A stretch of DNA of 57,735 nt, from IMG/VR virus record IMGVR_UViG_3300025070_002730, positions 1-57,735 of that record. The stretch is one strand, 5' to 3'. This document shows, piece after piece, positions 1 to 18,593 of this stretch. The position numbers and the translations under genes are program-made. Positions within the stretch are counted from its first letter, which is position 1. Each line of letters starts with the position of its first letter. Below the pieces are notes generated by a model. The model worked only from the letters and a program-made list of their open reading frames with translations. It made no database searches and was not told the origin of the DNA. Source of the DNA: a virus.

Positions 1-737
1 ATCAAAGCCACCTTGTTGCATCCATTGTTTGCAACGTTCGATCCGTTTAAATTGTGTGTCATAATCAATAGCATGTAAAACAAAAAAGAAACTAGGACTA
101 AATTGTCTTAGAGGCACAGCATCTTTAGGCTCGCGTTCACTCTTATAAGTTTTAATAAAGTCTTCTCCTATTGCATTATAATTTAAATACATTATACTAG
201 GATGTACAATAGGATCAAATAAATTATAATCTAAATCTTGAAAATCTTCTTTACGAGCATTAGGCACGCCTGTTTCAGGATTAACAATTCTAAATCTAAC
301 TCTTGGAGTTATTCTTTTTTGAAAATTTAAATTACTTCCAGCTCTGCTTTCTGCTTGATGAATAAAATCGTTTAGTAAGTCTCTTGCTTTTATAGCATCA
401 TTTTCATTTAACAATCCGTTAAGCCATTCGGGCTGTTGTGCTATTTCTTCATAGATATAGTGTACTTCGCTTAATTCTTGTAATGTGTATTCTGCTTTAT
501 TAACATAATGATCTGGAATTGTGTTTGCACGATGTTCATTACATTTGTCAATAATTTTATTAAGGCGTTTAAATTCGTCAGCAGGACCTAATCCTTGTAA
601 TGTAAGCTCATAGTTATGTAATTTAGGAACATTAACAATATGTTCTTGTAACATGCTTACCCATTTTTTTACAAATGAATTGTTATGCATGTGCCAATCA
701 AAAACAGTATCGTCCTCAAAAATTATTTGAACTCTCA
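1..737 (-). CDS. Hypothetical phage protein, partial (C-terminus beyond window)
   Basis: An open frame starts with ATG at 737-735 and runs without a stop off the left edge, giving 245 codons. A purine-rich Shine-Dalgarno sequence (GGGTGGAG) directly precedes the start. The protein begins MRVQIIFEDDTVFDW. It is charged and mainly soluble-looking, with several Trp and His residues and no signal peptide or membrane segment. I recognise no family. Its first 22 bases overlap the end of the auxiliary-domain gene upstream, so it is translationally coupled as the last visible gene of the radical SAM/glycosyltransferase operon. That position is the only clue to its role. The reading frame is well supported by its length and the coupled start; the function is unknown. 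Confidence 0.75.
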
Positions 738-1084
738 TCTCCACCCTTTCCTATTACTACTTGTTTAACTTTACTTTCTAATTTGTTTCTTGTTTCTTGG
801 TCTTTATACCTAGTACTTTTAATATCAGCTACACAAGTACAGCTATTCTTATTACACTCAATAAAGTCTGTAGGCAAATTCCAAACTTCATCATCGATGT
901 GTCCGATAGGACCTCCTATCCTGCACGTGCCTCTGTAAATATCTCCATTGCTTTTTATGTCAATACTTTCTAAGCCAATGCCACAGAGCCAGCCTTCAAA
1001 ATTTACTTCTTCTGCTTTGACCATATCGTTAGCCCAAACTTCTTGAGTATTACCGTCTTTGTCGTAAACAATTATATCACTCAT
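716..1084 (-). CDS. Stand-alone SPASM/twitch-like Fe-S auxiliary domain protein
   Basis: A 122-residue protein whose five cysteines (about 34, 54, 77, 82 and 84) sit in a pattern like the N-terminus of the 312-residue radical SAM protein encoded at 2394-3332: GW-x-CG-x-G, then G-x5-CR, an LP pair, and C-x4-C-x-C-x2-DI. SPASM and twitch domains bind auxiliary iron-sulfur clusters in radical SAM enzymes, so this is probably a cluster-binding partner without its own catalytic core. I chose ATG 1084 because a TTG three codons earlier lacks a ribosome site, whereas a GGA-rich stretch precedes the ATG. It overlaps the PP-loop gene by 8 bases and may serve the 231-residue radical SAM core two genes upstream. 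Cluster binding is inferred from the cysteines only. Confidence 0.7.
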   Translation of the reverse strand: MSDIIVYDKDGNTQEVWANDMVKAEEVNFEGWLCGIGLESIDIKSNGDIYRGTCRIGGPIGHIDDEVWNLPTDFIECNKNSCTCVADIKSTRYKDQETRNKLESKVKQVVIGKGGDESSNNF

Positions 1085-1709
1085 ATTTTCCAAATCCCCA
1101 TTTACGTTCTATACACCACCAACATTCACCGCAATGCTTTGTAAAGTCAAAGGTTTTATTTTCGCAACTTCTAGTCATACTAAAAAGTTCCATAATGTCT
1201 AATTGCTTATAAATGTTAGCAATATCTTTCTTATCGTAGTTAATCCACGGTGTAATTTTAGTATCAGTATATACTAGTTTATTTCTATCGTGTGTGCGTT
1301 CTAAATCTTCTTGTTTTATTCCTGTTTCGATTGGAGGATTAGCAGTTATACCCATATAATGCTTACCAAACATTAAACTATTTTTTGTTTTTTGTACTAT
1401 AGCACTACTGTTCATGTTGTATTCTTCTGCACTTGGAGAAAACACAGAACATCTATATTCAAAAACACTTCCTGTTTTTTGTGTAATGTAGTTTAGTATT
1501 TTGTTAGTATAATCTATCTGATAAGGACGATCATGATGCTCATTGGTCATTGTAATTATTTGGCTTTTAATTAAACCTTGTGATTTTAGTAATCCTAAAA
1601 TGTATGCTATTAAACTACTATCTGCTCCACCGCTGATTTTTAAGCCTACTTTTTCTAATGTAGGATCATAAGGAAATTGATAATCACCTATCTTAAAAAA
1701 TTCAATCAT
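1077..1709 (-). CDS. PP-loop ATPase, QueC/ExsB-like
   Basis: A 210-residue protein with the N-type pyrophosphatase loop SGGADSS at residues 26-32, typical of enzymes that adenylate a substrate with ATP. The C-terminus carries C182, then C193-G-x-C196-x2-C199-x2-R202. This matches the four-cysteine zinc site of 7-cyano-7-deazaguanine synthase (QueC). Length and architecture also fit QueC (about 220-230 residues), but the middle is divergent and the pathway partners QueD, QueE, FolE and a DNA or tRNA transglycosylase are absent from the window. It lies between a radical SAM core and an auxiliary-domain gene, overlapping both by 8 bases. A related amidation, thiolation or nitrile-forming step on another substrate is equally possible. 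The PP-loop assignment is firm; the substrate is open. Confidence 0.75.
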   Translation of the reverse strand: MIEFFKIGDYQFPYDPTLEKVGLKISGGADSSLIAYILGLLKSQGLIKSQIITMTNEHHDRPYQIDYTNKILNYITQKTGSVFEYRCSVFSPSAEEYNMNSSAIVQKTKNSLMFGKHYMGITANPPIETGIKQEDLERTHDRNKLVYTDTKITPWINYDKKDIANIYKQLDIMELFSMTRSCENKTFDFTKHCGECWWCIERKWGFGKYE

Positions 1710-2397
1710 CGTATTCCTCTAGCACTACATTTCTATATTCATTATCAGTTAAAAATTTTATTTGATTTTCTGTATAAACAGGCGAATATGGATTCTTACC
1801 TTCATGTACAACACTTTTGGGTCTTATGCGTTTCATATGATAAGGAATATTATGAGCTATACAATACTTAACCATTCTTACTGCTTTATCCCAATGCTCC
1901 GGTTCCATCATTAGATTAAGACTCATGCTTTTTCCATGTTTGTCACTTACATAATTGCTTATCGCTTTCATTGAAGGGAGAAATTTGTCTTCCTCTACAT
2001 ACTCAAAATGACTGCTAAATTGAATAATGTTGATATAGCTCATAAGTTCTAATAAGTATTCTTTGGTCCTGCTACCATTAGTGTTTAACCCTACTACAAA
2101 TCTTCCGTCATTGTTTAACCATTTACAAAACTTAAGAAAATTTGGATTAACTGTTGGTTCGCCGCCTGTAAACCATATTCTAATCTTTTTACTTGAAGGA
2201 ATGTTTGCTTTAAGTTTTTCTGCTATTTCAATTAAATTTTCAAGACTGCGGTGCGGACTTTTAAAATCATGTAAACTGTCAGGACAATAACTACAATCGT
2301 AATTACATCGTCTTCCTATGTTCCAATGTACATAAAAAAAATCCTGTGGTCTATTGCTTTGTATAGCAATTACATTTTCTGGTTGTTTAAAAGTCAT
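1702..2397 (-). CDS. Radical SAM enzyme, minimal core
   Basis: A 231-residue radical SAM protein with the CxxxCxxC cluster motif at C31, C35 and C38 (RRCNYDCSYC) and the SAM-binding TGGEP motif at about residues 77-81. The core closely resembles that of the next upstream gene (312 residues): both share W-N-x-G-x-RCNYDCSYCP, an HD-x2-SPH segment and TGGEPT-x-NP. Unlike that protein it has no auxiliary cysteine domain. The similar domain is instead encoded separately at 716-1084, with the PP-loop gene between them. It probably generates a 5'-deoxyadenosyl radical on a peptide or small-molecule substrate, perhaps working with those two proteins. The start ATG overlaps the stop of the 312-residue gene by 4 bases. 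Confidence 0.85.
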   Translation of the reverse strand: MTFKQPENVIAIQSNRPQDFFYVHWNIGRRCNYDCSYCPDSLHDFKSPHRSLENLIEIAEKLKANIPSSKKIRIWFTGGEPTVNPNFLKFCKWLNNDGRFVVGLNTNGSRTKEYLLELMSYINIIQFSSHFEYVEEDKFLPSMKAISNYVSDKHGKSMSLNLMMEPEHWDKAVRMVKYCIAHNIPYHMKRIRPKSVVHEGKNPYSPVYTENQIKFLTDNEYRNVVLEEYDD

Positions 2398-3332
2398 TTG
2401 GGTGTTCTCAGATATTCTAGTTCTTCTTGTGTATAATCTAGTATTTTGTTACCGTTAGCTTTATCAACTAGAGGCTCTATATTGATTCTGTATGATCCGT
2501 TACTAGAAGGAAGCAAGTTGATAAAATCTTTACACTCTTGCAATCTTCCCGGTACTAACATATACTTAACAATGCATACTCCTTGTTCTAGTGATAACTG
2601 GCTGACTTTATCTGCTAATTTATTTGCTTGATAGAATTCAGTGTGTACACTAATATGCAAGCCGCCGGCATTACAAAGTTTTTTTAATTTATCTATACTA
2701 GCTGTTCCATTTGTATTTGTATAAACTCTTCCATTATGAGAAACTACATAATCTACAATTTGCATATACTCTGGATTAATAGTAGGTTCTCCTCCAGTAA
2801 ACGTTAATTTTAAATTTTCTTGTTTACCTATTTGATCTAATACTTTGTCAAATGCTAATTTAAATTGCTCAAATGTAATATGAGGACTATAATTATCGTG
2901 AACTGTAGCAGGACAGTAACTACAATCGTAGTTGCACCTTGGTCCTAAATTCCAATTAATTGCAAATTCTTTGTTAACAGATTCTAGTGCTAAAATTTCT
3001 TCGCCACTATACTTTGGAGCATTATAATCAATGTCATTTTTTAGTGTTTTAAAATTTTCAATAGATTTACTTTTGAGTATATTAATATCACTTGCACAAT
3101 AGCAACTTTTGACAGGACAAATCATAGGTTCTGTTGGCAGTGTAAAATTACTGAATACATTTCCATAAGATCCGCTATTCCTGCACACATTACCAAAAAC
3201 TTCGCCCTTGTTACTAATCCATAAGAAGTCCATACCTGCACCACAGTACCAACCTTTAAATTTATTATAGGTTGTCTTTGCTTCAGCAAGGTTAGATTGT
3301 TTTAATCCGTCTGCGGTTTTTATTAAAATCAT
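2394..3332 (-). CDS. Radical SAM enzyme with N-terminal auxiliary cluster domain
   Basis: A 312-residue two-domain protein. Residues 25-85 hold a cysteine-rich auxiliary domain (C30, C50, C72, C77, C79), and residues 120-312 form the radical SAM core with C133, C137 and C140 (PRCNYDCSYC) and a TGGEPT motif near 175. Placing the auxiliary domain before the core is opposite to canonical SPASM enzymes, where it is C-terminal. Both halves have counterparts elsewhere in the operon: the 231-residue core downstream and the 122-residue protein at 716-1084. The simplest reading is a fused paralogue of that split pair. Its substrate is unknown. It overlaps both neighbours by 4 bases, typical of coupled translation. 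Confidence 0.85.
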   Translation of the reverse strand: MILIKTADGLKQSNLAEAKTTYNKFKGWYCGAGMDFLWISNKGEVFGNVCRNSGSYGNVFSNFTLPTEPMICPVKSCYCASDINILKSKSIENFKTLKNDIDYNAPKYSGEEILALESVNKEFAINWNLGPRCNYDCSYCPATVHDNYSPHITFEQFKLAFDKVLDQIGKQENLKLTFTGGEPTINPEYMQIVDYVVSHNGRVYTNTNGTASIDKLKKLCNAGGLHISVHTEFYQANKLADKVSQLSLEQGVCIVKYMLVPGRLQECKDFINLLPSSNGSYRINIEPLVDKANGNKILDYTQEELEYLRTPK

Positions 3333-4513
3333 TTTAAATCTAAAAATCCTCTAGTTTTAAGTCCAAGCACATGTTCAGGTTTCATATTCCTTTGATCAAG
3401 ATAAAACTTTACGTCTTTTACAATAAGATCAAAATCAACATTTGATTCTGTATGCATAAGTTGTTTGATACTGTTTTTAATAGTTTCGTCTTTAACTTTT
3501 TCAAGTATTAGAAAAATAATTGGCAAAGGAAGATTATACCATTGTAACGGACTGTCTACAGGTTTTAATGTAAAGTCAAATCCATAATTTAAATTTTCAT
3601 TAACTAAAAATTCTTCTATCTGAGGTAGATATTCAAAATTCAATATATTAACAAGAATAGAAATCTGATAGTCACAGTTATCTGGTTTATTATCCCTTAG
3701 AAAAGTTAAATTACGTTTCATCTTTTCCCAATTATGAGGCCAGCGGATGAAATTATAATTCTCTCCTATTGAATCCATACTAATTCTTAATTTAGTATGT
3801 TTTGCTTTAGAAAGTCTTTTGATAATTTCATCATTCATTATTGTACCATTAGTAGTAATTTCTAAATTTAAATCGCTACAATAGTTTTCATCTAATACTT
3901 TTCCTATAGGTTCCCAGTTTTCAATTAAAAATGGTTCGCCTCCAATAATTTTAAAAGTATGGATTTTATATTTTTTTAGTAAATTAGCACATGTTTTTCC
4001 TACTAGTTTAGTATCAGGTTGTTCCAGTGTTCCTTTTTTCCAATGCATAGGCAAGTGCCATGTATATTTTTTTGCAAGTGTCTCAATTAAACTGCTAGAG
4101 CCTTGACTGCAAAAAGGACATGCTAAGTTACATTTATTAGACATCACTACATCTAATTTTAAATAATCAAAATCTGGATTTTCTTTTTCTAATTTATTAA
4201 GTTTTAATCTTACACTATCTTTGTTAGATTTTTCAGCATTTATACAACTTCCACAAGCAGGATGAAATGTTCCTTTTTTGAAATGTGACTTAAAATGTCT
4301 TAAAGTTATATGCTTTTCAATTGATTGTTTTTCTTCTAAAGGAGTGAATGATTTAAATCGGTCTTCGATAAAATCTTTATCTAAATGACAACAAGGTGTA
4401 GCACGTACATACGGGTGTCCAGATTTATTTAAAAAATTAACTCGTATTCCTTTTTCTACATATGCACAATGTATTTTATTTTTTCTTTTACTTTTTTTCA
4501 TGAATATATCCAT
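3329..4513 (-). CDS. Radical SAM protein with N-terminal twitch-like domain
   Basis: A 394-residue protein. An N-terminal auxiliary domain contains C16, C41-C42 (ATPCCHLD) and C87/C90, followed by a linker and a radical SAM core with C128, C132 and C135 (NKCNLACPFC) and an IIGGEPF motif near 190. A PCC pair and a later CxxC are typical of twitch/SPASM auxiliary clusters. N-terminal-twitch radical SAM proteins are common in marine phage genomes and bacterial islands but remain uncharacterised as far as I know. The annotated start is ATG 4513; a second in-frame ATG at 4501 has a GGA seven bases upstream and could be the real start. The gene overlaps the radical SAM core gene upstream. Confidence 0.85.
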   Translation of the reverse strand: MDIFMKKSKRKNKIHCAYVEKGIRVNFLNKSGHPYVRATPCCHLDKDFIEDRFKSFTPLEEKQSIEKHITLRHFKSHFKKGTFHPACGSCINAEKSNKDSVRLKLNKLEKENPDFDYLKLDVVMSNKCNLACPFCSQGSSSLIETLAKKYTWHLPMHWKKGTLEQPDTKLVGKTCANLLKKYKIHTFKIIGGEPFLIENWEPIGKVLDENYCSDLNLEITTNGTIMNDEIIKRLSKAKHTKLRISMDSIGENYNFIRWPHNWEKMKRNLTFLRDNKPDNCDYQISILVNILNFEYLPQIEEFLVNENLNYGFDFTLKPVDSPLQWYNLPLPIIFLILEKVKDETIKNSIKQLMHTESNVDFDLIVKDVKFYLDQRNMKPEHVLGLKTRGFLDLK

Positions 4514-5165
4514 TACCGGTATGACGAGTTGTAGGCTTGAACTTTTCTGTAGGTTCTAATGGATCAAACTTTCCTTGTCTGCTGTCCCACCTATCACTTA
4601 AACGTAATAGTAGATGTATACCATTGTCTTCTGCTAATTTCTTTGCTTCTTCAATCTGATGTTCATTGAAACTAAACGGAATCCATTGCCATATTATTTC
4701 TTGATTCATCTTAACACCTAAACACATTGCATCGAAAACTTCTTTCCAATTTGTGTTTACACGATATAAATGTGCAGTATCTTCTAATCCATCTAATCCA
4801 AACCACACTGTACTTTTAATTTCTTTTCTTCCGTATGGTTTATTTTCATAACAGTTATAAAACTCTTCCCACCAGGATACTTTTTTGCCAGAGCCATTAG
4901 TGTGAAATTCAAATGGGATGTCCGAATCATGTAGAAATCTAACTGCGTCTAAAATTTTAGGATGATATAGCGGATCTCCATAGTTACCACAAAAAGTAAC
5001 TCTCCTAGGATTTGTAGCATTGACTATTGTCTTCATATGTTCAATTGGCAGATCATCAATTTTATAATGTCCTGTATATTTTGTACGAGGACATTTAGGG
5101 CATTGCAATAAACAGCGTTTACTCATCTCTAAATGGAGTGTCATGTCTTGTAGTTCACGTTTCAT
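4488..5165 (-). CDS. Radical SAM core protein, partner of a split SPASM protein
   Basis: A 225-residue radical SAM core with C18, C22 and C25 (KRCLLQCPKCPR). In place of GGEP it has a CGNYGDP motif near residues 60-66, which matches the YGDP variant seen in some SPASM-family enzymes. There are no auxiliary-cluster cysteines after the core. The gene overlaps the upstream 102-residue SPASM-type protein, so the pair looks like one enzyme split over two genes with the auxiliary half translated first. Start choice: TTG 5177 and ATG 5171 are in frame, but GGAG at 5175-5172 is correctly spaced (six bases) only for ATG 5165. Substrate unknown. Confidence 0.83.
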   Translation of the reverse strand: MKRELQDMTLHLEMSKRCLLQCPKCPRTKYTGHYKIDDLPIEHMKTIVNATNPRRVTFCGNYGDPLYHPKILDAVRFLHDSDIPFEFHTNGSGKKVSWWEEFYNCYENKPYGRKEIKSTVWFGLDGLEDTAHLYRVNTNWKEVFDAMCLGVKMNQEIIWQWIPFSFNEHQIEEAKKLAEDNGIHLLLRLSDRWDSRQGKFDPLEPTEKFKPTTRHTGNGYIHEKK

Positions 5166-5463
5166 CTTCATCTCCAAATATCACATATTGCTGTGTAGGG
5201 TTTGCTGTTTCTGTAAAAGGTTGATTGCACTTTCTATAACACATTTTGCAAGCAAATTTTTCAGGATTTTCTTTTAACCCTTGAACATAAGCAGAAAGTT
5301 CATTTTCTAAAATATGTTCTATAGTATTGGTTTTCAAATTCCAATTTTCATCCATTGAAACTTCTTCCCATTCACTTAACCAACAGCAAGGACGCACTTG
5401 GCTATTAGATGTAATATATAATTTTCTTGCATTTTCGCATTTAGGATATATGTTATCGCTCAT
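5155..5463 (-). CDS. Stand-alone SPASM-like iron-sulfur domain protein
   Basis: A 102-residue protein with cysteines at 9, 26, 27, 72, 75 and 79, including a V-x-PCCW segment and a C-x2-C-x3-C cluster at the end. This resembles the SPASM auxiliary domain of radical SAM peptide-modifying enzymes, where such cysteines bind one or two 4Fe-4S clusters. There is no radical SAM core in the protein. The next gene encodes a core without auxiliary cysteines and overlaps it, so the two products probably form a complex. The start ATG shares a base with the stop of the methyltransferase-like gene. The protein is unlikely to be a broken remnant, because the frame is intact and the coupled start is preserved. 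Confidence 0.72.
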   Translation of the reverse strand: MSDNIYPKCENARKLYITSNSQVRPCCWLSEWEEVSMDENWNLKTNTIEHILENELSAYVQGLKENPEKFACKMCYRKCNQPFTETANPTQQYVIFGDEDET

Positions 5464-6146
5464 TATTTTCTTCCAATTAACATAAATCTTGTGTATTTAG
5501 ACATCTCTTTCTGACCTGTATAATGTAGTTCATTCATCGGTGCCATATCTTTAAACTCGTAAATGTCTTTAACACAGTTGACATGTTCTTTAATTTCATA
5601 GTAATTATTACTCTGTAAAATTACCATCTTACCACTAGGTATTTTTGCATACCAATCTGCAAAATTTTTAATATGTTCACAACTAGTATTAATAATAGTA
5701 TCAGGCATTTCTGTAAGTTGTAAACTACTGCCATCTGCTCTATAAGTTGTATGTGTAGTTGGATATTCCATATTAAGAATATCTAATGTACTTGCTTTAA
5801 ATTGCCACCCGTCCATTACCCAGGGTCTATTCATATTATCGGCAACAGATGCACAACTACTATCAATATCAAAACTACGTATTTTGTCAAATTTGTCTCT
5901 TGCACGTTCAAACATAAAACTTGCAAGTGTACCATACCAGCCTGCACAAACAAATACAGTTCCTAACTTGTCGGGTAAATTTTCAATAAGCCACAGTTTA
6001 CTTTCTAATTGTCCTAAACTAAAAGCATCTACCATAGCAGTTTCACTTTCAGGAAACATAGTAAGAGTACGCTTCATTTGTGAAACTACTTTATTTTCAG
6101 GATAAAGATATTCTAATCCGTTAAGTAGATTAACTGTATTGCTCAT
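5463..6146 (-). CDS. Class I SAM-dependent methyltransferase-like protein
   Basis: A 227-residue protein with a Rossmann-type layout. Around residues 60-75 is VFVCAGWYGTLASF, which fits motif I of class I methyltransferases in degenerate form. About 25 residues later DIDSS gives the acidic end of strand 2, and DTIINTSCEH near 150 fits the motif IV strand. The order and spacing suit a small-molecule or protein methyltransferase, but the glycine motif is atypical, so catalytic competence is not certain. It lies in the operon between a glycosyltransferase-like gene and the split SPASM/radical SAM pair, with a 17-base overlap at its start and a 1-base overlap at its end. The substrate is unknown. 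Confidence 0.6.
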   Translation of the reverse strand: MSNTVNLLNGLEYLYPENKVVSQMKRTLTMFPESETAMVDAFSLGQLESKLWLIENLPDKLGTVFVCAGWYGTLASFMFERARDKFDKIRSFDIDSSCASVADNMNRPWVMDGWQFKASTLDILNMEYPTTHTTYRADGSSLQLTEMPDTIINTSCEHIKNFADWYAKIPSGKMVILQSNNYYEIKEHVNCVKDIYEFKDMAPMNELHYTGQKEMSKYTRFMLIGRK

Positions 6147-6819
6147 TAAATTTTTCCTTTAACCAATCAAAATTATTAATTAACTTAATATCAGACTTGT
6201 TAGAAAGCCCAAACTCCCTGCCAGCAATAGCACCTGCAATAGCGTAATCGCCGAAGGGAACATCCCCTCCAACTGTTGTCCATATGTGTAGTCTTTCTTC
6301 TGTTTCGTCATTTTTTTGTCCTTTGATCGTTTTACTGCTTAATTTTGTACATTCTCTAAAAGCACTTTTCCAAGTACTAAAAGGATCAGTGTTAAATGCT
6401 GTGGTGTTACTTACTTCGTTCATCACCTTAAACTTATCACTAATACTCGTAGTCATGTCATTAGTAGTTGTGTCCATGTTAAGTGTTAGTGTTGTAGGTA
6501 ACAGTTTTACACCGCCATACCCATACGTTAAATTATTGATAGGATTAGCACTACGGTAAACATGTACAATATCCTTTTCCTTTGCTATATAAGCAAATTT
6601 GAAGTCTTGTACGATCTTTGCGTCACCGTCAACTACATAGAAGTAACTAGTTCTTACAAGTTTAGCCGCTTCAACGTGAGCATTGTGTATACCTTTGACA
6701 TTAGTAACACGCTTTACTCTGTCACCAAATACTCCAACAGTATTAAATCTATTGTACAAATCGTCAAAATTTTGTTCCGCATTTGGCTCAAAGTAACTTA
6801 TAAAGATTATATCATGCAC
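6130..6819 (-). CDS. Glycosyltransferase-like protein (GT-A, DGD motif), short paralogue
   Basis: A 229-residue protein paralogous to the 306-residue product of 8156-9076. Both begin with an IIFISY/IIYLSY strand followed by EPNA, have an aligned F-x-VDGD near residues 67-70, and share a GG-LK/GG-VKLLP segment and a late W-x-x-VG-x-D-x4-G-x-x-AI-x-GA block. The VDGD matches the metal-binding DxD of GT-A glycosyltransferases. The start is GTG 6819, supported by GAGGAG eight bases upstream; the overlapping ATG at 6815 is out of frame and closes at once. It overlaps the long radical SAM gene by 13 bases. I infer sugar transfer from the fold hints; donor and acceptor are unknown. Confidence 0.65.
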   Translation of the reverse strand: MHDIIFISYFEPNAEQNFDDLYNRFNTVGVFGDRVKRVTNVKGIHNAHVEAAKLVRTSYFYVVDGDAKIVQDFKFAYIAKEKDIVHVYRSANPINNLTYGYGGVKLLPTTLTLNMDTTTNDMTTSISDKFKVMNEVSNTTAFNTDPFSTWKSAFRECTKLSSKTIKGQKNDETEERLHIWTTVGGDVPFGDYAIAGAIAGREFGLSNKSDIKLINNFDWLKEKFNEQYS

Positions 6820-8156
6820 TTTTTACACTCCTCGTAAAAATCTTTCATTTGAGGGAATACTTCTAAAAAATTAACATCTCGTCGTTTATCGTATTGTTGT
6901 ATCCATTCATAAAACATTCTTCGACCTTCAATTGTCTCTTGTTTGAACTTAGTATTGTCTTGTCTTACATCTAAGTCTTTTACAATACGCTTCATTTGAG
7001 ACTTTTCTCTATCATTAAAATTGTTTTCTTCCATATAAGGAATACACGGATGTAAGTAATCTTGAATTAAATTACTAGTAGCAATTTTAGCATCTAAGAA
7101 TCCTGGACTTCTTACATAAGGTATATCTACTATAATATCATTTTTGTATCCGCCTTTAAGTCTAGCGACATACTTAAGAAAAGGTAAAAATGTAGGAATA
7201 CTTAACACATTAAATGCACTCATAAACACTAAACTACCTGTTGCTTGTTTTAGATAATACTTAACATTGTCTGTAAACATTGTCCAGTCCATACCATATC
7301 TATTATATTCTGCTTGATCTCCTTTACTTTCTGCACTTACGAACAAAACAAATCTTTGTATACAATTATTATCTTCTAAAATTTTAATTTTATCTACAAA
7401 TTCTTTCCATTGGTTTGCTAATGGAGGGCATCCATTTGTGTTTATAGAAAATTCTAATTGAGGTTGAGGATTATTCATCAAGTACTCTATTACTCTATTA
7501 GTATGTTTGCTCATCAAAGGTTCACCACCTGTAATACGAAACGTGTGCATATGTGTTACTGCTTCTGGGAACCATTTCCAAAATGCTTCAACATACGGAT
7601 TAGCTTCTCGTTGTGGTATTTGTTTTTGATGTTCGTCTGGTTGATTATATCTCCAATTAGTATCTTTGAACGTGTAAGGGCCATGCTCTTTAATTTCGTC
7701 AGCCCATTTACTACTAAAAGAAGGACTACAATATCCACATTTAAAATTACAAACATTACTAAAACTTACTTCAACATAACGAGGATAAAAGTTTTCATCA
7801 CCAGTCATCTTAGATATAGTATCAAAATCTGGCCAACTAAATGGATCGCTACTTTTAAAAACTCTATCACTATATTCGTCTGTATTATCCTCAATACGCC
7901 AACAGTAATCACACTCGTTTGGTCGCTCGTTGTTAAGCATCTGTTTTCTTACGTTCTTTTTAAATCCAGTGTTATGTAATGTACCAGGATTTTTTGCAAG
8001 TTCGTTTAAATCAATTGGATGTGCTTTAACATGATGACAACTGTGCGTTAATCCTGATCCTAAATGAATAGTTACTTGTGTCCATTTAGCCAGACAGAAT
8101 CCACAACCTACTTTATCTAATTTTTCTTTGACCTCAATTAGTTGCGGTTGTTGCAT
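6807..8156 (-). CDS. Radical SAM protein with N-terminal twitch-like domain (long)
   Basis: A 449-residue protein. The N-terminal auxiliary domain carries C18, C21, C40 and a C82/C85 pair (NECDYCWR) and is followed by ED-x8-SDR, the usual lead into N-terminal-twitch radical SAM proteins. The catalytic core has C136, C140 and C143 (NVCNFKCGYC) and ITGGEPL near 209. A long C-terminal helical part ends in KKCMI with one extra cysteine. This family is widespread in marine phages and is annotated only by domain. It is the largest radical SAM protein here and is flanked on both sides by paralogous glycosyltransferase-like genes, which suggests a shared pathway. It begins on the last base of the upstream gene's stop. 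Confidence 0.87.
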   Translation of the reverse strand: MQQPQLIEVKEKLDKVGCGFCLAKWTQVTIHLGSGLTHSCHHVKAHPIDLNELAKNPGTLHNTGFKKNVRKQMLNNERPNECDYCWRIEDNTDEYSDRVFKSSDPFSWPDFDTISKMTGDENFYPRYVEVSFSNVCNFKCGYCSPSFSSKWADEIKEHGPYTFKDTNWRYNQPDEHQKQIPQREANPYVEAFWKWFPEAVTHMHTFRITGGEPLMSKHTNRVIEYLMNNPQPQLEFSINTNGCPPLANQWKEFVDKIKILEDNNCIQRFVLFVSAESKGDQAEYNRYGMDWTMFTDNVKYYLKQATGSLVFMSAFNVLSIPTFLPFLKYVARLKGGYKNDIIVDIPYVRSPGFLDAKIATSNLIQDYLHPCIPYMEENNFNDREKSQMKRIVKDLDVRQDNTKFKQETIEGRRMFYEWIQQYDKRRDVNFLEVFPQMKDFYEECKKCMI

Positions 8157-9076
8157 TATTTTTCCTTGTCTATAAACTGCTGATTACTACTTCTACTAGG
8201 ATTTTGATAAACAGTTTTAAAGAACATGCTTTGTTCTTCAGTAAAAGGTTGGATAGCAATAGGGCAATCTAGTTGATTAATTAACTCGCTTCCATAATTA
8301 AAAATTTCATCGTGTAAAACATCTGCAGGCATTTCGTCTCTTCCGCCCCAAAGCTGATTAAGATATTCAAAATCACGTACTTGTACGTAATCCCAATCAC
8401 TAAGCATTGTCATACTAAGGCCTTCTCTAGCACCTAATATTGCCCAGTTACCGTTTTTAGCATCAGCACCAACCATTAACCAAATCCATAGTCTGTGTAA
8501 ATTCTTCCAATGTCCGTTTAAAAATTCTTCCTTAGTTGGTTTGACTCCTTGATCAAGTGCCATTTTTACACCTTCACGGAATCCTGCTCGCCAGGCCTGA
8601 TGTGCTGTTTCGTTATTATGTACATCTGAATAGCAACTATTTTGTTGGATATACTGTAAGTCCCAACAAAAGTCTACTTGTGCTTGTTTATTATTAGGAT
8701 CAGCGTTTTCGTGTGTTTTCATATCTAACACATATTGTTTTGGCCAGCATTTTAATCCTCCATTGCCATATAGCAATCCGTTAACAGAATTTCTACCACA
8801 CCAACTAATTACACTATGTTCTAAGTCTGTATGTTCATCAAAGTCTAATACTTGATTAATAAAATCTTGCCGTATAGTATTATCACCGTCTACTGTAATG
8901 AATCTATCTGTTTCAGAAAGTTCAGCACAGGCTTTATGTGCCGCATCAGAACCTTCTACACCATGTACACGCTTTGCCCACGGAACTTTAGTTAACAAGT
9001 CTGCATAATTTTTATCAGCGTTTGGTTCGTCATAACTTAAATAAATTATATCTATTTCTGCAATTTTTACTTTCAT
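8156..9076 (-). CDS. Glycosyltransferase-like protein (GT-A, DGD motif), long paralogue
   Basis: A 306-residue protein related along its length to the 229-residue product at 6130-6819. It opens with KIAEIDIIYLSYDEPNADKN, has a VDGDN motif near residues 63-67 that suits a DxD metal site of GT-A enzymes, and a W-x-MVGADAKNG-x-WAILGA block near 205-220. The extra C-terminal 70 residues are not present in the short paralogue. No membrane segment or signal is visible, so it should be cytosolic. It is coupled by one-base overlaps to both neighbours (unknown 179-residue protein upstream, long radical SAM downstream). Glycosyl transfer is an inference from the motif; the duplication flanking the radical SAM gene is directly visible. 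Confidence 0.68.
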   Translation of the reverse strand: MKVKIAEIDIIYLSYDEPNADKNYADLLTKVPWAKRVHGVEGSDAAHKACAELSETDRFITVDGDNTIRQDFINQVLDFDEHTDLEHSVISWCGRNSVNGLLYGNGGLKCWPKQYVLDMKTHENADPNNKQAQVDFCWDLQYIQQNSCYSDVHNNETAHQAWRAGFREGVKMALDQGVKPTKEEFLNGHWKNLHRLWIWLMVGADAKNGNWAILGAREGLSMTMLSDWDYVQVRDFEYLNQLWGGRDEMPADVLHDEIFNYGSELINQLDCPIAIQPFTEEQSMFFKTVYQNPSRSSNQQFIDKEK

Positions 9077-9615
9077 TATAATTCCTTATACATACAAGTT
9101 GCCATATCACTACTTGCATAGATACTATACGTATCTTTAATATTAATTGTATGTTCTTTTGGATCTGCAATATTAAACGTAATCATATCGTATAATACAT
9201 GCGGATCGCCTTTCTTTGTAAAACTAAAAGTAATTTCTTTTTGGAAATCTACGTTAGTTGTTTTCATTGTATCTAATAGTTCTATACCTGTACTAATATA
9301 ACATCTTTTAGCCTTATTGTCAACCGTTAAAAGCAAATCATACATTGCAGATTCATCTACAGGCATGATCTGTGTAAACTGTGCTTCGTGTTCGATATAG
9401 ATATTCTCTTTAAGTACAAATGCCTTTTCAACTCGATTGTAAGCTACAACATAATCGGTCATATTTTTTTTAAAAGTTTTAATAGGCTCAATCTCTTCTT
9501 CAGTAACTTCAACATACTGATAGCCTGGCTCAATACTAGGTCCTACACTAAAAATTTCTCCAGTCTTTTGATTAAAACAAACATACTGCGGAGTATCTAT
9601 TTTAACATGTTGCAT
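9076..9615 (-). CDS. Hypothetical protein in biosynthetic operon
   Basis: A 179-residue protein with no family I recognise. It is beta-rich in appearance, with many Val/Ile/Tyr/Thr strands, and has no cysteine motif, signal peptide or membrane helix. Two short pieces look like small sheet domains: YVCFNQKTGEIFSVGP near the start, and a C-terminal stretch ending in TCMYKEL. The start ATG 9615 is well supported by GAGGAG five bases upstream. It overlaps the glycosyltransferase gene before it by 19 bases and shares one base with the gene after it, so it is made together with them. It could be an accessory or substrate-presenting protein, but nothing in the sequence decides this. Confidence 0.7.
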   Translation of the reverse strand: MQHVKIDTPQYVCFNQKTGEIFSVGPSIEPGYQYVEVTEEEIEPIKTFKKNMTDYVVAYNRVEKAFVLKENIYIEHEAQFTQIMPVDESAMYDLLLTVDNKAKRCYISTGIELLDTMKTTNVDFQKEITFSFTKKGDPHVLYDMITFNIADPKEHTINIKDTYSIYASSDMATCMYKEL

Positions 9616-10391
9616 AACATCTCCTCACAAAAACTATTTTCAGTATAATGAAAAAGTCCGTGTTGTGTATAATTTCCAATTTTTAATTCGTCACTAATAT
9701 AATATGGCACAGTATCAGTCCAAGTATCGGTTGGGTTATCCCATCCTTGTACTTTACTTTTCATATGTACAAACGATGCAGAATTAATAGTATAATCATC
9801 TATATTACTGTCAAGTAATGCAATAGCATGATTCACATCCATACTACTTAAGGTAGGTGTTTGCTTAGGGGCATATACTTCATAATACTTTTGATAATTA
9901 TCACATACTCTATTCAATACTTTATAATAATCTAATGCTGTGTTGTCTTTCTTAAAATAATGAAAAGCACAATATATGTTAGGTAAGTTATTTGCTGTAA
10001 ATGCTTTCCTATAGTAGTCATTTGTAATTGTATTTCCTCTATAGTCTGTTACGTTACTAATAAAGCCTATACTTTTTTGTGCAAAGTATTTCCACCAGTG
10101 CGAAATATCTGATAGAAATATCATATCAGTATCTAGTACAACTGTTTCATCATACGGAGTTAAATGAAACACTTTCCAACGATGTTCTGTTATATAAAAA
10201 CTTTGTGGGTCGTCGTGCCAAGGTACTTCAATAATTTTATCGAAAACACTTTTATATTCTTCTGGAACTGCGTCACTTGTTACTATTGATACGTTGTTAA
10301 TTGCCTGTGTTTTCTTAATGCTCACAGCACACAAATATGCTTGGCGTACATAGTCGTCGCCCATAGCTACCATAATATATCCCTTATCCAT
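9597..10391 (-). CDS. GT8-like glycosyltransferase
   Basis: A 264-residue protein resembling small glycogenin/GT8-type glycosyltransferases. An N-terminal strand (YIMVAMGDDYVRQAYLCAVS) is followed by V-x-LDTDMIFLSD near residues 82-92, the classic DxD environment that binds the divalent metal and nucleotide sugar. An FH-Y pair and a DVNHAI-x-LLDS segment follow. It shares this layout with the next upstream gene (274 residues, LVLDTDYIICND), so the two are paralogues. No membrane segment is present. It overlaps the upstream gene by 8 bases and the downstream unknown by 19. The position just after the tail-fibre genes suggests glycosylation of virion or host-surface material, which is inference. 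Confidence 0.75.
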   Translation of the reverse strand: MDKGYIMVAMGDDYVRQAYLCAVSIKKTQAINNVSIVTSDAVPEEYKSVFDKIIEVPWHDDPQSFYITEHRWKVFHLTPYDETVVLDTDMIFLSDISHWWKYFAQKSIGFISNVTDYRGNTITNDYYRKAFTANNLPNIYCAFHYFKKDNTALDYYKVLNRVCDNYQKYYEVYAPKQTPTLSSMDVNHAIALLDSNIDDYTINSASFVHMKSKVQGWDNPTDTWTDTVPYYISDELKIGNYTQHGLFHYTENSFCEEMLCNMLK

Positions 10392-11208
10392 TTATAAGTT
10401 CTCCCAAACTAAACTTATTCATGACATGTACATTACAGTCTTTTGTTGATGCTAAAATGTATTCTCCTACATAGTTTTCTTTTTGTAGTAAAAATGTAAG
10501 TGAATTATCTTTAATAGTTTTTACAATATCTCTATCTAATGTATAAAACATTTTGCCTGGTAGAGTTTTTGCCCAATTACCATCTGTAAATCCATTCATC
10601 ATATGTATAGCAATACTAAACACATGATCATTTCTAAAGTTTCTACTTCCTAAATTATACACGTGATCATAATGTTTCCAGTTACTTACTAAGTGTTGTA
10701 ATAGGTCAAAAAATATTTTTGTTTCTTGTGTTTTTGTAAAGCAAAAACAAGTTGCCCAATAAAAAGGAATACCTGTATCATTAATGTAATCAAATTCTTT
10801 ATGTTTACGCCAATCACATAAATCGATACCGTTCCTATATATTTGAAAATCGTGTGTACTATTAAATGCATTGTTGAATACATCATTACAAATTATGTAA
10901 TCTGTATCAAGAACAAGTGTAGTATCATAAGGAGATAATTCATAACTTCTTACTCTGTCATTATTTTTGAATGGTAATCTTTCATGATGTAAAGAGCCGT
11001 TATAATAACGTTTTACGTTGTTATTATCATCTGCTATTTCAATTACTTGATCAAATACTGTGTTGTCGTCTAGCCCGTGTGGAGTAGACGTGACTAACGT
11101 AGTTGGTAAATTCAAATGTTGCTTTACACGTTTTGCAAGAAACTCTGCTTGCTTTATATAATTTACTTTTCCGTTATTGTGTGCAAAGCATAGTACACCA
11201 TTAGTCAT
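10384..11208 (-). CDS. GT8-like glycosyltransferase, paralogue
   Basis: A 274-residue protein with the same outline as the 264-residue gene that follows it: an N-terminal strand with A-x-NNG-x-V-x-Y, ELSPYDTTLVLDTDYIICND near residues 90-110 (DTD metal-binding motif), a later F-x-FT-x-T block, and a C-terminal H-V-MNKFSLGELI. The pairing 'PYDTTLVLDTDYI' versus 'PYDETVVLDTDMI' shows common origin by tandem duplication. Substrate and donor cannot be named. The start overlaps the stop of the 115-residue gene by 8 bases. Cytosolic, with no signal sequence. Glycosyltransferase is the best reading; the exact GT family is less sure. Confidence 0.73.
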   Translation of the reverse strand: MTNGVLCFAHNNGKVNYIKQAEFLAKRVKQHLNLPTTLVTSTPHGLDDNTVFDQVIEIADDNNNVKRYYNGSLHHERLPFKNNDRVRSYELSPYDTTLVLDTDYIICNDVFNNAFNSTHDFQIYRNGIDLCDWRKHKEFDYINDTGIPFYWATCFCFTKTQETKIFFDLLQHLVSNWKHYDHVYNLGSRNFRNDHVFSIAIHMMNGFTDGNWAKTLPGKMFYTLDRDIVKTIKDNSLTFLLQKENYVGEYILASTKDCNVHVMNKFSLGELING

Positions 11209-11548
11209 CCACTAAACCTTCTACATTACGTTTGGTGCTAAGAATCTTATATTCTTGTAAGTACTTACTAGTTACATCTGTGTAATGTTGAGTTGCTTTT
11301 AACATAAATTCTTCAACATCATTAATTTCAATAGGAGTTCTATTACTATCTATTAATACAGTTTTGTTTATGTTTGTAGAAGTTAGCATAAAACAAAAAT
11401 TCAAAAGTTCTTTTGAAATTGTAAACATGCCATTATTAGAGTACATTACTAGTTCATCTAAATACTTTTCATGCAATATACGTTTTTGGGCGTTGAGTGT
11501 AGAAGTAAAATTAGAAAAATCTAATGCCTTCTCTAGTGCTTCGTCCAT
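11201..11548 (-). CDS. Hypothetical small protein, first gene of the accessory operon
   Basis: A 115-residue acidic, mostly helical protein (MDEALEKALDFSNF at the start, ending RNVEGLVDD). I recognise no family; small proteins of this sort occur near tail-fibre genes in marine T4-like phages. Its ATG (11548) and ribosome site lie inside a perfect inverted repeat (11547-11578), so its translation may be controlled by RNA folding. It follows the 304-residue fibre-like gene after a 36-base gap, the last real gap before the fully overlapping series that runs to the left edge. It is therefore the likely first gene of that unit, unless transcription reads through from the fibre genes. Confidence 0.65.
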   Translation of the reverse strand: MDEALEKALDFSNFTSTLNAQKRILHEKYLDELVMYSNNGMFTISKELLNFCFMLTSTNINKTVLIDSNRTPIEINDVEEFMLKATQHYTDVTSKYLQEYKILSTKRNVEGLVDD

Positions 11549-11578
11549 AGTTATACTCCTAGTTTATAGTATAACTAT
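11547..11578 (-). promoter_or_regulatory. Inverted repeat enclosing the start of the 115-residue gene
   Basis: Two perfect 11-base arms (11547-11557 and 11568-11578) surround a 10-base loop. On the minus-strand transcript the ribosome site (AGGAG) straddles the loop and descending arm, and the AT of the ATG start codon lies in the stem. Folding would therefore hide the translation start. It could also be a weak terminator or attenuator after the fibre genes, but no run of U follows. The hairpin is seen directly in the sequence; the regulatory role is inference. Confidence 0.5.
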
Positions 11579-11584
11579 TTACTC

Positions 11585-12499
11585 TTATAGGTTGTCTGTG
11601 TTGGCGAAAGTTGGTGCCGCAATGTTTACACTGCTTGCATTGTTAGGTCTATTTAACTGTACAGTACTAGTTGTAGTTGCTGTAACTGCTTCGTCATAGT
11701 TTGGATTAGGACCTTTATCTTCGTTAAATGTAACACGGAATGTTAAAACTGCACCGCTTTTCTTTGCTTCAATTAAATAATCGTTAGCACTATAAGCACT
11801 TGCTGTCTTGTTAAAAATTGTTGTATAGCTAGTAGGTAAGTTTGAATAACCGTAGTTAGTACCTGTTGAACCATTTGAAGTAGTTGATCTTCCAACTATA
11901 ACTGTACCTACTGATGTCATTAAGTTACGCCAGTCGTTATTAATAGTTGAACTACCTGAACCAATTGTACCACTTAAATTTATTGTGCCGCCTGCATTAA
12001 AAAATACACGCATATGTTCTGCGCCACTAACTGTTGTAGTACTTCCGTCTCCATTAGTAACTGCATATCCACCAAAAGTAACAGTAAAAATATGATTAAT
12101 ATCTGTTGACCAGCTTGATGTTCTTTGGCTACTTGTACCTGCTTGCAATCCTAGTTGGCTTGCATTTGCAGTTAATCTTGATGCTTGGCATGTTGTACTT
12201 AATGTTTCGTACTGTACATAACCTTCTTTTGAAGTATTATTTGAATCTTCAACTGTATCACCTACACTTGGTGCTATAATTTCTGTAGGAACTGATCCTG
12301 TTTGATGTAATCTGATCTTGTTCATATCAGTAAACAAATTTGCCATATCTTGTGCTGTAATTGTAGCACCTACTGCCGCTGTACTACTTGCACGAGCTTG
12401 TCCGTAACCTTCATCACCAGAACCTAATCCAATAACTGCCGCTACTCTTGCTTGAATAATGTTGTACCGCGCCGCGGTAATTGTATCGCCTACTGCCAT
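11585..12499 (-). CDS. Fibre-like virion structural protein
   Basis: A 304-residue protein with a composition typical of phage adhesins: rich in Thr, Ser, Asn, Gly and Ala and poor in charge. It starts MAVGDTITAARYNIIQARVAA, a start I associate with virion structural proteins of marine T4-like phages. The middle is beta-rich with many TSST/GSGSST runs. It does not share the N-terminal domain of the three fibre proteins upstream. No enzymatic motif is visible. It is the last of the tail-fibre group and ends just before the accessory operon. It probably forms a trimeric fibre tip or whisker-like element, but the exact position in the particle is not known. Confidence 0.7.
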   Translation of the reverse strand: MAVGDTITAARYNIIQARVAAVIGLGSGDEGYGQARASSTAAVGATITAQDMANLFTDMNKIRLHQTGSVPTEIIAPSVGDTVEDSNNTSKEGYVQYETLSTTCQASRLTANASQLGLQAGTSSQRTSSWSTDINHIFTVTFGGYAVTNGDGSTTTVSGAEHMRVFFNAGGTINLSGTIGSGSSTINNDWRNLMTSVGTVIVGRSTTSNGSTGTNYGYSNLPTSYTTIFNKTASAYSANDYLIEAKKSGAVLTFRVTFNEDKGPNPNYDEAVTATTTSTVQLNRPNNASSVNIAAPTFANTDNL

Positions 12500-12515: not shown

Positions 12516-12523
12516 TACTTATA
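12516..12523 (-). promoter_or_regulatory. Possible late promoter (TATAAGTA)
   Basis: On the minus strand GTATAAGTATTAAA lies just upstream of the 304-residue gene. It differs by one base from the T4 late element TATAAATA. The implied leader before the ATG at 12499 would be very short, with AAGGAA as ribosome site. This is weaker than the other late-type motifs of the window and might be chance in AT-rich DNA. Confidence 0.3.
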
Positions 12524-14003
12524 CTTTAAGTACACACTCGATTAGCTTTTCTGACTCATCGTCACTAGCTTCTAATGCAATACCGACTAAACCTGTTGTT
12601 TCTATAGTTGAACATACACCATCTTCCCAAGCATACACTGGTTGTCCTTTTGATACAACACCTTTTACTCTTACAGGAACACGGCCTTTAAGTCCAATTG
12701 CTTGGCCTTCTGATTCTGCGTTCATTAAGTGTGCTGGATTTTCAGAAATTACACCAATACACATTGTACTTGATTTAGCCGCTGTTGTTTCAGCGTCTCC
12801 ACCTACTGCCATTGCTGTACCTACTGGATACTCATTGTCTGTTGTGTATTTTTCTGCTAAGTCAGCATATCTTGCACTTGTTGATACACCATTAAATACA
12901 TTTGCTGATATATTACCACTTGAGTCACGCACTGCAACTGTATTATTTGTTGCATTTACATCACCTGTTCTATAATTTGATCCAACTTGTAGTGCAATCG
13001 CCTGTGTTGCTAATCCGTTAAATGAAGTTGCATACATGTTTCTCCATTTATAATTTGCATCACCAATGTCATATGTTGCTGTTGTTGTTGGAATAAGTCC
13101 AATTGATTGTATTTGGAATGGCTCTGTAGTTACACCACCACTTGACTTAACTCTAAATCTAATCTTTTGTCCTGTAGTGTTTTCAATAACACCCTCATCA
13201 CCTGAACCTGCTGAATCTACAAATATTTTTAAATCGTTTGCCGCACCAACTGTATATCCTGCATCAGAAAATCTTACAGTTTCACCAAATGAACTTTCTT
13301 GGCCTGGTGTGTTTTGTACAAAGTTTGCCGCACTAACACCACCTAGTGATTCAGCATTTGTTGCTGTACCATGGAATCTGTGTGCTGAACTTGTAATACC
13401 ATTTGCTGAACTAGTTGTATTTCTTAGGGTAAGTCCTTGGCGTACTACATCAAATCCAGTAATGGCATTGGCTGGATCTGTAGTATCTATTGTAAATTCT
13501 GAATTACTTACAATAAACACAACACCATCATCAACAGTACCTTTAATTACAGTTCTGTTAACTTGATTGTTATCACGTACTTGAGCAGTTACCATAGCAC
13601 TTACTGTTTCACCAATTGATTGTGGACCAATTAGGACAAATCCACCATCTGCATTTTGTGCATATAATTGATTGTTGCTAGTATCCCACCAAAAATCACC
13701 TGTTGTTAATCCTACTGGTTGTGTTGTGGATATTTCCGCTCCACCTGTTGTTCTAAACTTAGTTCCGTCATAGAACTTTAATTTTTTTAATGAACTATCA
13801 AACCAAACTTGGCCGCTTATTGGACCTGCTGGTTGATTTCCGCTAGAAAAACTTTCTAGCAAATGGATAAAGTTTTCGTTCTGTATCTCACCATAGCCAG
13901 CATAGTTCTTACCTACTAATTTAAGTGAAGTACTCTGGTCAATGGTGCCGTCTTCAACCGTTACTAACGACCCTCCATTTGTTAAATTTATTACGTATGC
14001 CAT
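12519..14003 (-). CDS. Tail fibre protein, paralogue A (chaperone-like C-terminus)
   Basis: A 494-residue fibre protein. Residues 1-130 form the domain shared with the next two fibre genes: MAY-x-IN start, an I-x-GKNY-x-G-x-GE segment, ENF-x-x-LLE-x-F, then G-x-x-WFD and G-x-FWWDTSNNQLY. The middle is a repetitive beta region with remarks such as GDANYKWRNMYATSFNG, common in fibre shafts. The C-terminal 120 residues contain YADLAEKYTTD followed by a compact beta domain ending IECVLKV. That ADLAE box occurs at the end of many phage fibres and may be a trimerisation or autoprocessing module. Its role is probably host recognition. A late-type promoter lies 27 bases upstream of the start. Confidence 0.83.
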   Translation of the reverse strand: MAYVINLTNGGSLVTVEDGTIDQSTSLKLVGKNYAGYGEIQNENFIHLLESFSSGNQPAGPISGQVWFDSSLKKLKFYDGTKFRTTGGAEISTTQPVGLTTGDFWWDTSNNQLYAQNADGGFVLIGPQSIGETVSAMVTAQVRDNNQVNRTVIKGTVDDGVVFIVSNSEFTIDTTDPANAITGFDVVRQGLTLRNTTSSANGITSSAHRFHGTATNAESLGGVSAANFVQNTPGQESSFGETVRFSDAGYTVGAANDLKIFVDSAGSGDEGVIENTTGQKIRFRVKSSGGVTTEPFQIQSIGLIPTTTATYDIGDANYKWRNMYATSFNGLATQAIALQVGSNYRTGDVNATNNTVAVRDSSGNISANVFNGVSTSARYADLAEKYTTDNEYPVGTAMAVGGDAETTAAKSSTMCIGVISENPAHLMNAESEGQAIGLKGRVPVRVKGVVSKGQPVYAWEDGVCSTIETTGLVGIALEASDDESEKLIECVLKV

Positions 14004-14029: not shown

Positions 14030-14037
14030 TATTTATA
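14030..14037 (-). promoter_or_regulatory. T4-type late promoter (TATAAATA)
   Basis: On the minus strand GGTATAAATACATA contains an exact T4 late promoter core, TATAAATA, placed 27 bases upstream of the ATG of the 494-residue fibre gene, with an AGGGG ribosome site between them. In T4 this sequence is read by RNA polymerase carrying gp55, and a gp55 gene is present in this window at 45040-45888. It also overlaps the last codons of the preceding fibre gene. Confidence 0.65.
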
Positions 14038-18585: not shown

Positions 18586-18593
18586 TATTTATT
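18586..18593 (-). promoter_or_regulatory. Late-type promoter motif AATAAATA (+CAGT)
   Basis: On the minus strand AATAAATACAGT lies 18 bases before the ATG of the 203-residue gene. The same 12-base sequence occurs upstream of gp6 at 37213-37224. It resembles the T4 late core TATAAATA with one change at the first base. Two identical copies placed at the head of structural genes support a real promoter element more than either copy alone. Confidence 0.45.

Follow-up and report, generated by a model that had tools for sequence, protein, structure and literature searches.

Hypervariable islands that combine tail fibres with radical SAM enzymes are already known from pelagimyophages. The host recognition clusters of these phages (Kyanoviridae), placed between VrlC and gp14, are rich in GT8 glycosyltransferases, and remodelling of the host surface has been proposed for them (PMC7029224). 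The Campylobacter phages CP220 and CPt10 carry 11-12 radical SAM genes in an interchangeable module, although those of CP220 fall short of the twitch family cut-off and no glycosyl-type enzymes are mentioned in PMC2853527. Phage-encoded glycosylation of virion proteins is on record for mycobacteriophages (Freeman 2023, as cited in PMC12619734), and PMC12619734 itself describes four core glycosyltransferases in moraphages, a lineage that looks different from the present one. Our literature search returned no jumbo-phage paper reporting radical SAM enzymes together with glycosyltransferases. Here we analysed a 57,735-nucleotide stretch of phage DNA (the window), carried by large, T4-like marine phages of a widespread and uncultured lineage, whose portal protein, among best matches only, is 45-52% identical to those of Atu_ph07, Phosso and PBECO4-like phages. 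Like the clusters of pelagimyophages and cyanomyophages, its island is a hypervariable part of the structural region that lies beside tail fibres and carries GT8 and radical SAM cassettes. Unlike them, it has a fixed, fibre-linked glycosyltransferase block under a late promoter, with the variable part after it, and the comparison pelagimyophage HTVC008M has no twitch radical SAM enzyme. The constant block, the promoter and a link to Bdellovibrionota described below appear to be undescribed in the literature searched.

The island follows two structural genes, which like g01-g16 below lie on the minus strand: f1 (12519..14003), encoding a tail-fibre-like protein of 494 aa with which the constant synteny block starts, and f0 (11585..12499), encoding a structural or adhesin-like protein of 304 aa that precedes g01. 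The window also holds a 5,013-aa ORF at 33630-18589. The T4-type late promoter sequence TATAAATA lies on the minus strand at 14030..14037, 34 b before the start of f1, and it is likely the promoter of f1, f0 and the operon; the motif occurs 3 times in the window against 11 expected by chance. We found NATAAATA 32-36 b before f1 in all 47 non-redundant relatives, and it preceded g01, g02, g03 or g05 in none of 48 relatives, nor any of g01-g06. We therefore take the operon to be probably late and transcribed together with the fibres. Sigma70-type promoters and terminators within the operon showed no excess over chance.

From position 11548 to the left edge we called 16 minus-strand ORFs, g01 to g16. 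Every adjacent pair overlaps, as a preliminary description of this DNA had stated, at 15 of 15 junctions; the range it gave, 1-26 b, becomes 1-29 b when the longest ORFs are used (8, 8, 19, 1, 1, 13, 17, 1, 23, 26, 4, 4, 8, 17 and 29 b from g01 to g16). Taking nearer ATG starts for doubtful genes shrinks the overlaps (g10 to 11-17, g15 to 8 and g16 to 23 b), and all 15 junctions still overlap. In the rest of the window 5/19 same-strand pairs overlap (Fisher p = 1e-5). Along the complete island, in the same species, 31/33 same-strand pairs overlap, as do 62-78% in the stretches from relatives, so that overlap is a habit of the island and not of a pathway. Since shuffled modules overlap too, overlap by itself is weak evidence of coupling, and of the single coupled unit that had been proposed, what stands is one same-strand unit behind the fibres. 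The operon runs past the window edge and continues on contig G001, which over 13.6 kb is 99.7% identical.

Comparison with relatives established that the operon is a constant block followed by a hypervariable distal cassette, and not one fixed pathway. We fetched 60 loci independently, via the fibre gene and not via the operon, and all 60 had g01, g02, g03 and g05 downstream of it, with g04 in 58, in the order f0-g01-g02-g03-g04-g05; joint conservation thus holds for the proximal block. The first gene, g01 (11201..11548, 115 aa), had no match among 50,697 phage records. The next two resemble GT8 glycosyltransferases, weakly for g02 (10384..11208; glycogenin E 0.19) and more clearly for g03 (9597..10391; glycogenin/GT8 E 9e-7), and their DxD motifs (D101 and D103 in g02, D87 and D89 in g03) are invariant in the alignments. 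The product of g04 (9076..9615), a fast-evolving slot, has 179 aa and is mostly beta; a fold search gave no significant match (best VIA Z 5.4, C-terminal half only), and the Fn3/Ig-like arrangement of that half in the VIA match may be chance. For g05 (8156..9076) the predicted model (pLDDT 88) matched SunS/ThuS/WrtF (E ~1e-4) and a PBCV-1 glycosyltransferase (E 6e-4) in Foldseek and a GT-A fold in VIA (Z 10). D63 and D65 are invariant, and with this fold and a DxD-type motif g05 is a predicted glycosyltransferase. It is the longer of two GT-A fold paralogues (GTx), the shorter being g07 (6130..6819), at which homology to close relatives stops. Pfam gave nothing for g01-g05, g07, g08, g15 or g16, and cultured phages searched for g01, g03, g05, a relative of g07 and the 73-aa protein considered below yielded no match.

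Five genes of the distal part belong with the radical SAM family PF04055 (g06 and g10 score under the curated threshold), and CxxxCxxC is kept in all five. These are g06 (6807..8156), a twitch-domain enzyme matching NF033640 (N_Twi_rSAM) with 289 bits against a cut-off of 170; g10 (4488..5177), a core without auxiliary domain (PF04055 E 3e-4; phrog_21308 E 2e-17); the twitch-like g11 (3329..4513; PF04055 E 2e-16), which at 155 bits against NF033640 is a divergent relative and not a member; g12 (2394..3332; PF04055 E 7e-14), with an N-terminal SPASM-like extension read from the sequence; and g13 (1702..2397; PF04055 E 2e-15), a radical SAM core. Free-standing SPASM-like domains are encoded by g09 (5155..5463, an Fe-S domain; PF13186 E 0.0026, below cut-off) and g15 (716..1093; 39% identical to Bdellovibrionota B16a|18 over 118 aa). 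The best relative of g13, B16a|17, adjoins B16a|18, and g13 is likely the split partner of g15. The remaining genes are g08 (5463..6146), weakly methyltransferase-like (MJ0882 E 0.018); g14 (1077..1709), a PP-loop ATPase with a QueC-like C-terminal Cys motif (PF06508 E 4e-7, 30 bits against a cut-off of 22, covering the C-terminal 57 residues only); and g16 (1..744), which runs off the window edge and measures 288 aa in G001. The gene identities first proposed for the operon hold broadly: we recognise five radical SAM enzymes, SPASM-like domains, a PP-loop protein, GT8 for g03 and GT-A for g05 and g07, with g02 and g08 weak; the earlier placement of natural-product or glycan-type enzymes behind the fibre genes is also supported. 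In the cassette of the window itself we recognised no genes for nucleotide-sugar synthesis. When g06 and g11 were searched in cultured phages, only Vibrio phages K566/K567 matched (23%); K566 carries twitch radical SAM genes, but a glycosyltransferase block was not recognised in it. The genes tested are under purifying selection (dN/dS 0.06-0.44).

Strong selection for keeping the whole set together, as had been suggested, is not borne out, since the distal half varies and its genes can be missing individually, the very outcome that the preliminary description had named as its refutation. In five relatives homology ends at about window position 6140-6155 with a different cassette beyond; the cassette was swapped wholesale near 6140 between phages otherwise 82-90% identical. 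Another relative, L266, keeps g07, g08, g11, g12, g13, g15 and g16 in order, lacks g09, g10 and g14, and has an additional 283-aa gene. Genes closely related to g12 turned up in only 2 viral contigs and those closely related to g14 in 9, and a highly conserved 73-aa protein lying 3' of g08 in relatives is absent from the present phage. Distal cassettes contain radical SAM genes, free-standing SPASM domains, PP-loop ATPases and dioxygenases, as well as sulfotransferase-like genes; alternative ones add a DegT protein (E 2e-82, closest to PseC/LegC) and a NodU-type carbamoyltransferase (E 1e-65). We considered and rejected matching of fibre to cassette as a simple rule: phages with near-identical fibres differ in cassette, as in L033, which is 90% identical through the fibres.

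Chromosomal islands of Bdellovibrionota contain relatives of the cassette families, at 27-66% identity. N_Twi_rSAM is present in 30/114 Bdellovibrionota genomes against 2/299 Pseudomonadota. Relatives there reach 42% identity for g05, 41% over 450 aa for g06, 44% for g07 (B16b|9) and 45% for g08 (B23|9). Each of the 10 GTx-bearing Bdellovibrionota genomes that we examined contains the g08 family. Like the phage, these islands cluster relatives of g05, g06, g07, g08, g13 with g15 and many cassette radical SAM genes (up to 66%); unlike it, they have mixed strands and adjoin ordinary polysaccharide-type genes, with the shared families beside GT2, O-mannosyltransferase-like and flavin amine oxidoreductase-type proteins. 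In the radical SAM tree phage and Bdellovibrionota lineages interleave, with 24 label changes, at least 15 of them forced by well-supported branches. The island stretches that we examined gave no match to g01, g02, g03 or g04. Relatives of g05 in Streptomyces and Photorhabdus sit, by eye, among other glycosyltransferase-like genes. Our literature search found nothing tying Bdellovibrio to islands of radical SAM enzymes and glycosyltransferases.

We would give about an even chance to the reading that this is a late island for glycan assembly and tailoring, with a virion fibre or adhesin as the most likely acceptor and the host surface second. The products of g01-g05 (three glycosyltransferase-type genes and two small proteins), transcribed with f1 and f0, would lay down a basic glycan, which the exchangeable cassette would then diversify chemically through radical SAM enzymes whose SPASM domains are either built in or free-standing, another GT-A enzyme, the methyltransferase-like protein, the PP-loop ATPase, dioxygenases and sulfotransferase-like proteins. 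Cassettes of other phages would add the DegT sugar aminotransferase and the NodU-type carbamoyltransferase. The benefit may be an altered fibre display towards hosts, rival phages or grazers. Support comes from the fixed order of fibre and glycosyltransferase genes, the f1 promoter, the GT-A fold of g05 and the GT8 match of g03, the DegT and carbamoyltransferase cassettes, the sugar-gene neighbours in Bdellovibrionota, the interleaved radical SAM lineages and purifying selection. Phage-modified virion proteins that bear glycans, as cited for mycobacteriophages, are what we propose here; we know of no radical SAM cassette in that system. We count against this reading the weak assignments of g02 and g08, the lack of recognised nucleotide-sugar synthesis genes in the phage's own cassette and the different cassettes behind near-identical fibres.

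The same enzymes may instead act on the envelope of the host (LPS O-chain or capsule), where late remodelling would block superinfection or re-adsorption of progeny. This is a possibility, if an unlikely one: it has been proposed for the GT8-rich pelagimyophage clusters (PMC7029224) and the Bdellovibrionota islands resemble surface-polysaccharide loci, but the fibre late promoter and fixed fibre linkage suit virion modification better, and neither flippase nor polymerase was recognised in the annotated stretches. Exclusion functions are, moreover, usually early. Twitch and SPASM radical SAM enzymes act on peptides more often than on sugars, and the PP-loop ATPase and dioxygenases, also counted against a glycan, would fit a peptide product too. 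That the island makes a small natural product, ribosomally derived or other, by radical SAM/SPASM maturation, PP-loop ligation, dioxygenases and B12-radical SAM methylation nevertheless seems improbable. Many of the radical SAM matches are to peptide maturases (below cut-off), the radical SAM/SPASM pairs are likely split, and a B12-radical SAM enzyme is related to KedN5 (162 bits, where the cut-off is 700). However, neither a precursor peptide gene nor an exporter was seen in the operon, the ORF calls show no separate small ORF among the overlapping genes (a precursor that is very short or encoded far away would escape them), the conserved 73-aa protein after g08 in relatives is absent here, and the sole constant part consists of glycosyltransferase-type genes with g01 and g04.

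Mere compaction, in which a densely packed variable region gathers accessory genes that are unrelated and share no product, would account for overlaps that extend islandwide (31/33) and persist after gene gain and loss, and for the rapid turnover of distal content; we regard it as quite improbable, since a constant block and a set of g05, g07, g08 and radical SAM genes recurring in Bdellovibrionota islands are unexpected of random accessory genes. Least probable is 7-deazaguanine-type hypermodification of phage DNA or tRNA, suggested by the Pfam match of g14 to QueC and by radical SAM genes matching phage QueE-like families. That QueC match is confined to 57 C-terminal residues, and NCBIfam scores fall below cut-offs for both QueC (TIGR00364, 18 bits against 150) and QueE (TIGR03963, 40 and 34 bits against 260). 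For QueE, a stronger candidate is encoded elsewhere than in the island (L083:15402-16427); L266 lacks g14 but retains the genes around it, and the unit is probably late. We dropped the DNA-modification reading on the NCBIfam scores and the loss of g14.

More broadly, and rather doubtfully, large marine phages may decorate their own fibres with radical SAM-tailored glycans, swap the tailoring cassettes and share an enzyme pool with predatory-type Bdellovibrionota, which would apply this chemistry to their surfaces. A Bdellovibrionota host, should these phages have one, would account for the common repertoire. If late glycan assembly and tailoring is right, the radical SAM genes of marine phages, puzzling so far, would be placed late in the infection cycle, with the fibres, and would gain a concrete, testable substrate class. 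The constant block offers a ready marker for the present phage lineage, and the relatives link the phage enzymes to Bdellovibrionota chromosomal islands, in which this chemistry would be open to study. For phages to tailor virion or surface glycans with radical SAM enzymes would, if true, be new chemistry.

The window, an IMG/VR virus record containing T4-type genes, has a portal closest to those of Atu_ph07, PBECO4 and similar large T4-like phages (45-52% identity). Sixteen minus-strand genes (g01 to g16) lie between 11548 and the left edge and overlap at 15/15 junctions by 1-29 b, compared with 5/19 same-strand pairs in the rest of the window (p = 1e-5), bearing out the preliminary description's claim that all adjacent genes here overlap. 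Contig G001, 99.7% identical to the window over 13.6 kb, shows that the gene run extends past the window edge. On G001 it takes in g16 (288 aa), two further radical SAM genes, one of them B12-binding, a nitroreductase, TauD-type and additional dioxygenase-like genes, and a sulfotransferase-like gene; beyond these, convergent genes reach to about 26.7 kb of G001 and are followed by another fibre-like gene. Since 31/33 same-strand pairs overlap across this entire island, we regard overlap as a habit of the island. A perfect 8-b inverted repeat, AGTTATAC...GTATAACT (11549-11576, minus strand), lies immediately before the g01 start codon, with a likely ribosome-binding site in or beside its loop, and might control translation. 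Upstream of the fibres, a single ORF of 5,013 aa (18589-33630, minus strand) is possibly a baseplate VrlC-type protein.

We compared 80 relatives fetched with g05 and 80 fetched with the fibre gene f1, the latter providing a test independent of the operon. In all 60 f1-fetched loci that extend 5.5 kb or more downstream (near-copies included; profile models for locus content were built from alignments sharing some of the same loci), g01, the GT8-like genes g02 and g03, and GTx (the g05/g07 family) follow f0, the fibre-region gene directly preceding g01, in that order. g04 occurs in 58/60, and in a few loci an additional gene separates f0 from g01. Of the 60 loci, 56 also have a radical SAM gene, 30 a second GTx and 21 the methyltransferase-like g08, and gene content further downstream varies from phage to phage. 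The operon is thus two parts, not the single joint set previously proposed. The boundary is sharp in relative L033, where DNA identity is 90% between 19071 and 8204 and 85% as far as 6142, with unrelated sequence beyond. Four other relatives (L003, L006, L013 and L021) share about 82-85% identity with the window as far as g06, lose similarity at 6140-6155 and past this match it just in short stretches of g08. Relative L266 keeps g07, g08, g11, g12, g13, g15 and g16 but not g09, g10 or g14, and contains an additional 283-aa gene. The corresponding region of other phages holds a DegT aminotransferase closest to PseC/LegC with a NodU-type carbamoyltransferase, TauD-type dioxygenases or additional radical SAM genes. 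Those genes that allowed comparison are under purifying selection. A 73-83 aa protein with the motif ESARALSTMQATNNNIWQFNKQAHHNSQNWY, conserved far above its neighbouring genes, is encoded directly after g08 in L014 (g08 end 13766) and in 38 other loci (cluster c16); it was found in neither the window nor G001, had no match among cultured phages or the fetched Bdellovibrionota islands, and might serve as a substrate, a carrier or a structural protein.

The T4 late promoter TATAAATA is depleted in the window (3 in 1-57735 versus 11 expected), and all three sites lie 22-40 b ahead of a gene. Among non-redundant relatives, NATAAATA is found upstream of f1 in 47/47, by 32-36 b (distances listed for the first twelve exact TATAAATA sites); it also precedes the gene f4 in 26/27 relatives and f0 in 9/48. 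It was absent ahead of g01, g02, g03 and g05 (0/48 relatives each), g04 (0/26) and g06 (0/39). Because the motif precedes f1 and none of g01-g06, the operon is most likely transcribed from the fibre late promoter.

Of the encoded proteins, g03 is GT8-like (glycogenin match, E 9e-7) and g02 weakly so. The paralogues g05 and g07 represent GTx; the predicted structure of g05 (pLDDT 88) has a GT-A fold, and since some nucleotidyltransferases share this fold, sugar transfer by g05 is just probable. g06 scores above the curated cut-off as a twitch-domain radical SAM enzyme. g12 appears to carry an N-terminal SPASM-like extension, of which g15 resembles a free-standing copy, and g13 looks like a radical SAM core lacking such an extension; g13 and g15 (with g14 in between) therefore look like a split enzyme, as do g09 and g10. 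An adjoining pair in a Bdellovibrionota island (B16a|17 and B16a|18) supports this reading. A QueE-like radical SAM gene, below curated cut-offs, lies outside the island in the same phage species (L083:15402-16427, minus strand).

The g05/g07 profile, run against bacterial and archaeal genomes, matched Bdellovibrionota chromosomes, Photorhabdus, Streptomyces and others. All ten Bdellovibrionota genomes picked for carrying GTx have a g08-type gene and 6-33 matches each to the radical SAM family NF033640, partly in dense islands. These islands share the phage families, with identities of up to 62-66% for phage radical SAM genes and of 42%, 41%, 44% and 45% for g05, g06, g07 and g08. A tree built from 127 radical SAM proteins mixes phage and Bdellovibrionota rows: the label changes 24 times, and well-supported branches force at least 15 of these changes. 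The g05 lineage is split from that of g07 with full support, and both contain phage and Bdellovibrionota members, so the duplication predates the exchange between phages and these bacteria. Above cut-off, the radical SAM family occurs in 30/114 Bdellovibrionota, 2/299 Pseudomonadota and 1/198 Bacteroidota genomes; GTx is sporadic in Bdellovibrionota (7/114). By eye, in the L128, L149 and L158 set, Photorhabdus relatives of g05 adjoin GT-like genes, an ABC-type exporter and an HlyD-like gene, and Streptomyces relatives lie in small multi-glycosyltransferase clusters. The phage block or cassette also occurs on contigs binned in Neomarinimicrobiota, Rickettsiales, Gammaproteobacteria and Bdellovibrionales MAGs (L100, L104, L101-L103, L106, L107 and L127; one 335 kb long); since these are probably phage contigs in bins, the MAG labels give no phage host.

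Gene context points to an island that would make and tailor a glycan: the neighbours in Bdellovibrionota are of GT2, O-mannosyltransferase-like and flavin amine oxidoreductase type, those in Streptomyces and Photorhabdus include several glycosyltransferases, and alternative cassettes carry a sugar aminotransferase and a carbamoyltransferase. A peptide product is a rival reading, and DNA modification fits worst. The acceptor would most likely be a virion component: the fixed fibre linkage and late promoter point to the virion rather than early host takeover. The competing acceptor is the host envelope; this has been proposed for pelagimyophages, whose hypervariable islands, like this one, have GT8 and radical SAM cassettes beside the fibres (PMC7029224).

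Interchangeable radical SAM modules are described in Campylobacter phages (PMC2853527). The open-access literature searched gave no description of a constant fibre-linked glycosyltransferase block, its promoter pattern or a repertoire common to phages and Bdellovibrionota, an absence that is no proof of novelty. The sequenced Vibrio phage K566 (L099, OZ196521.1) has two twitch radical SAM genes above the cut-off and several more below, and is a possible laboratory model.
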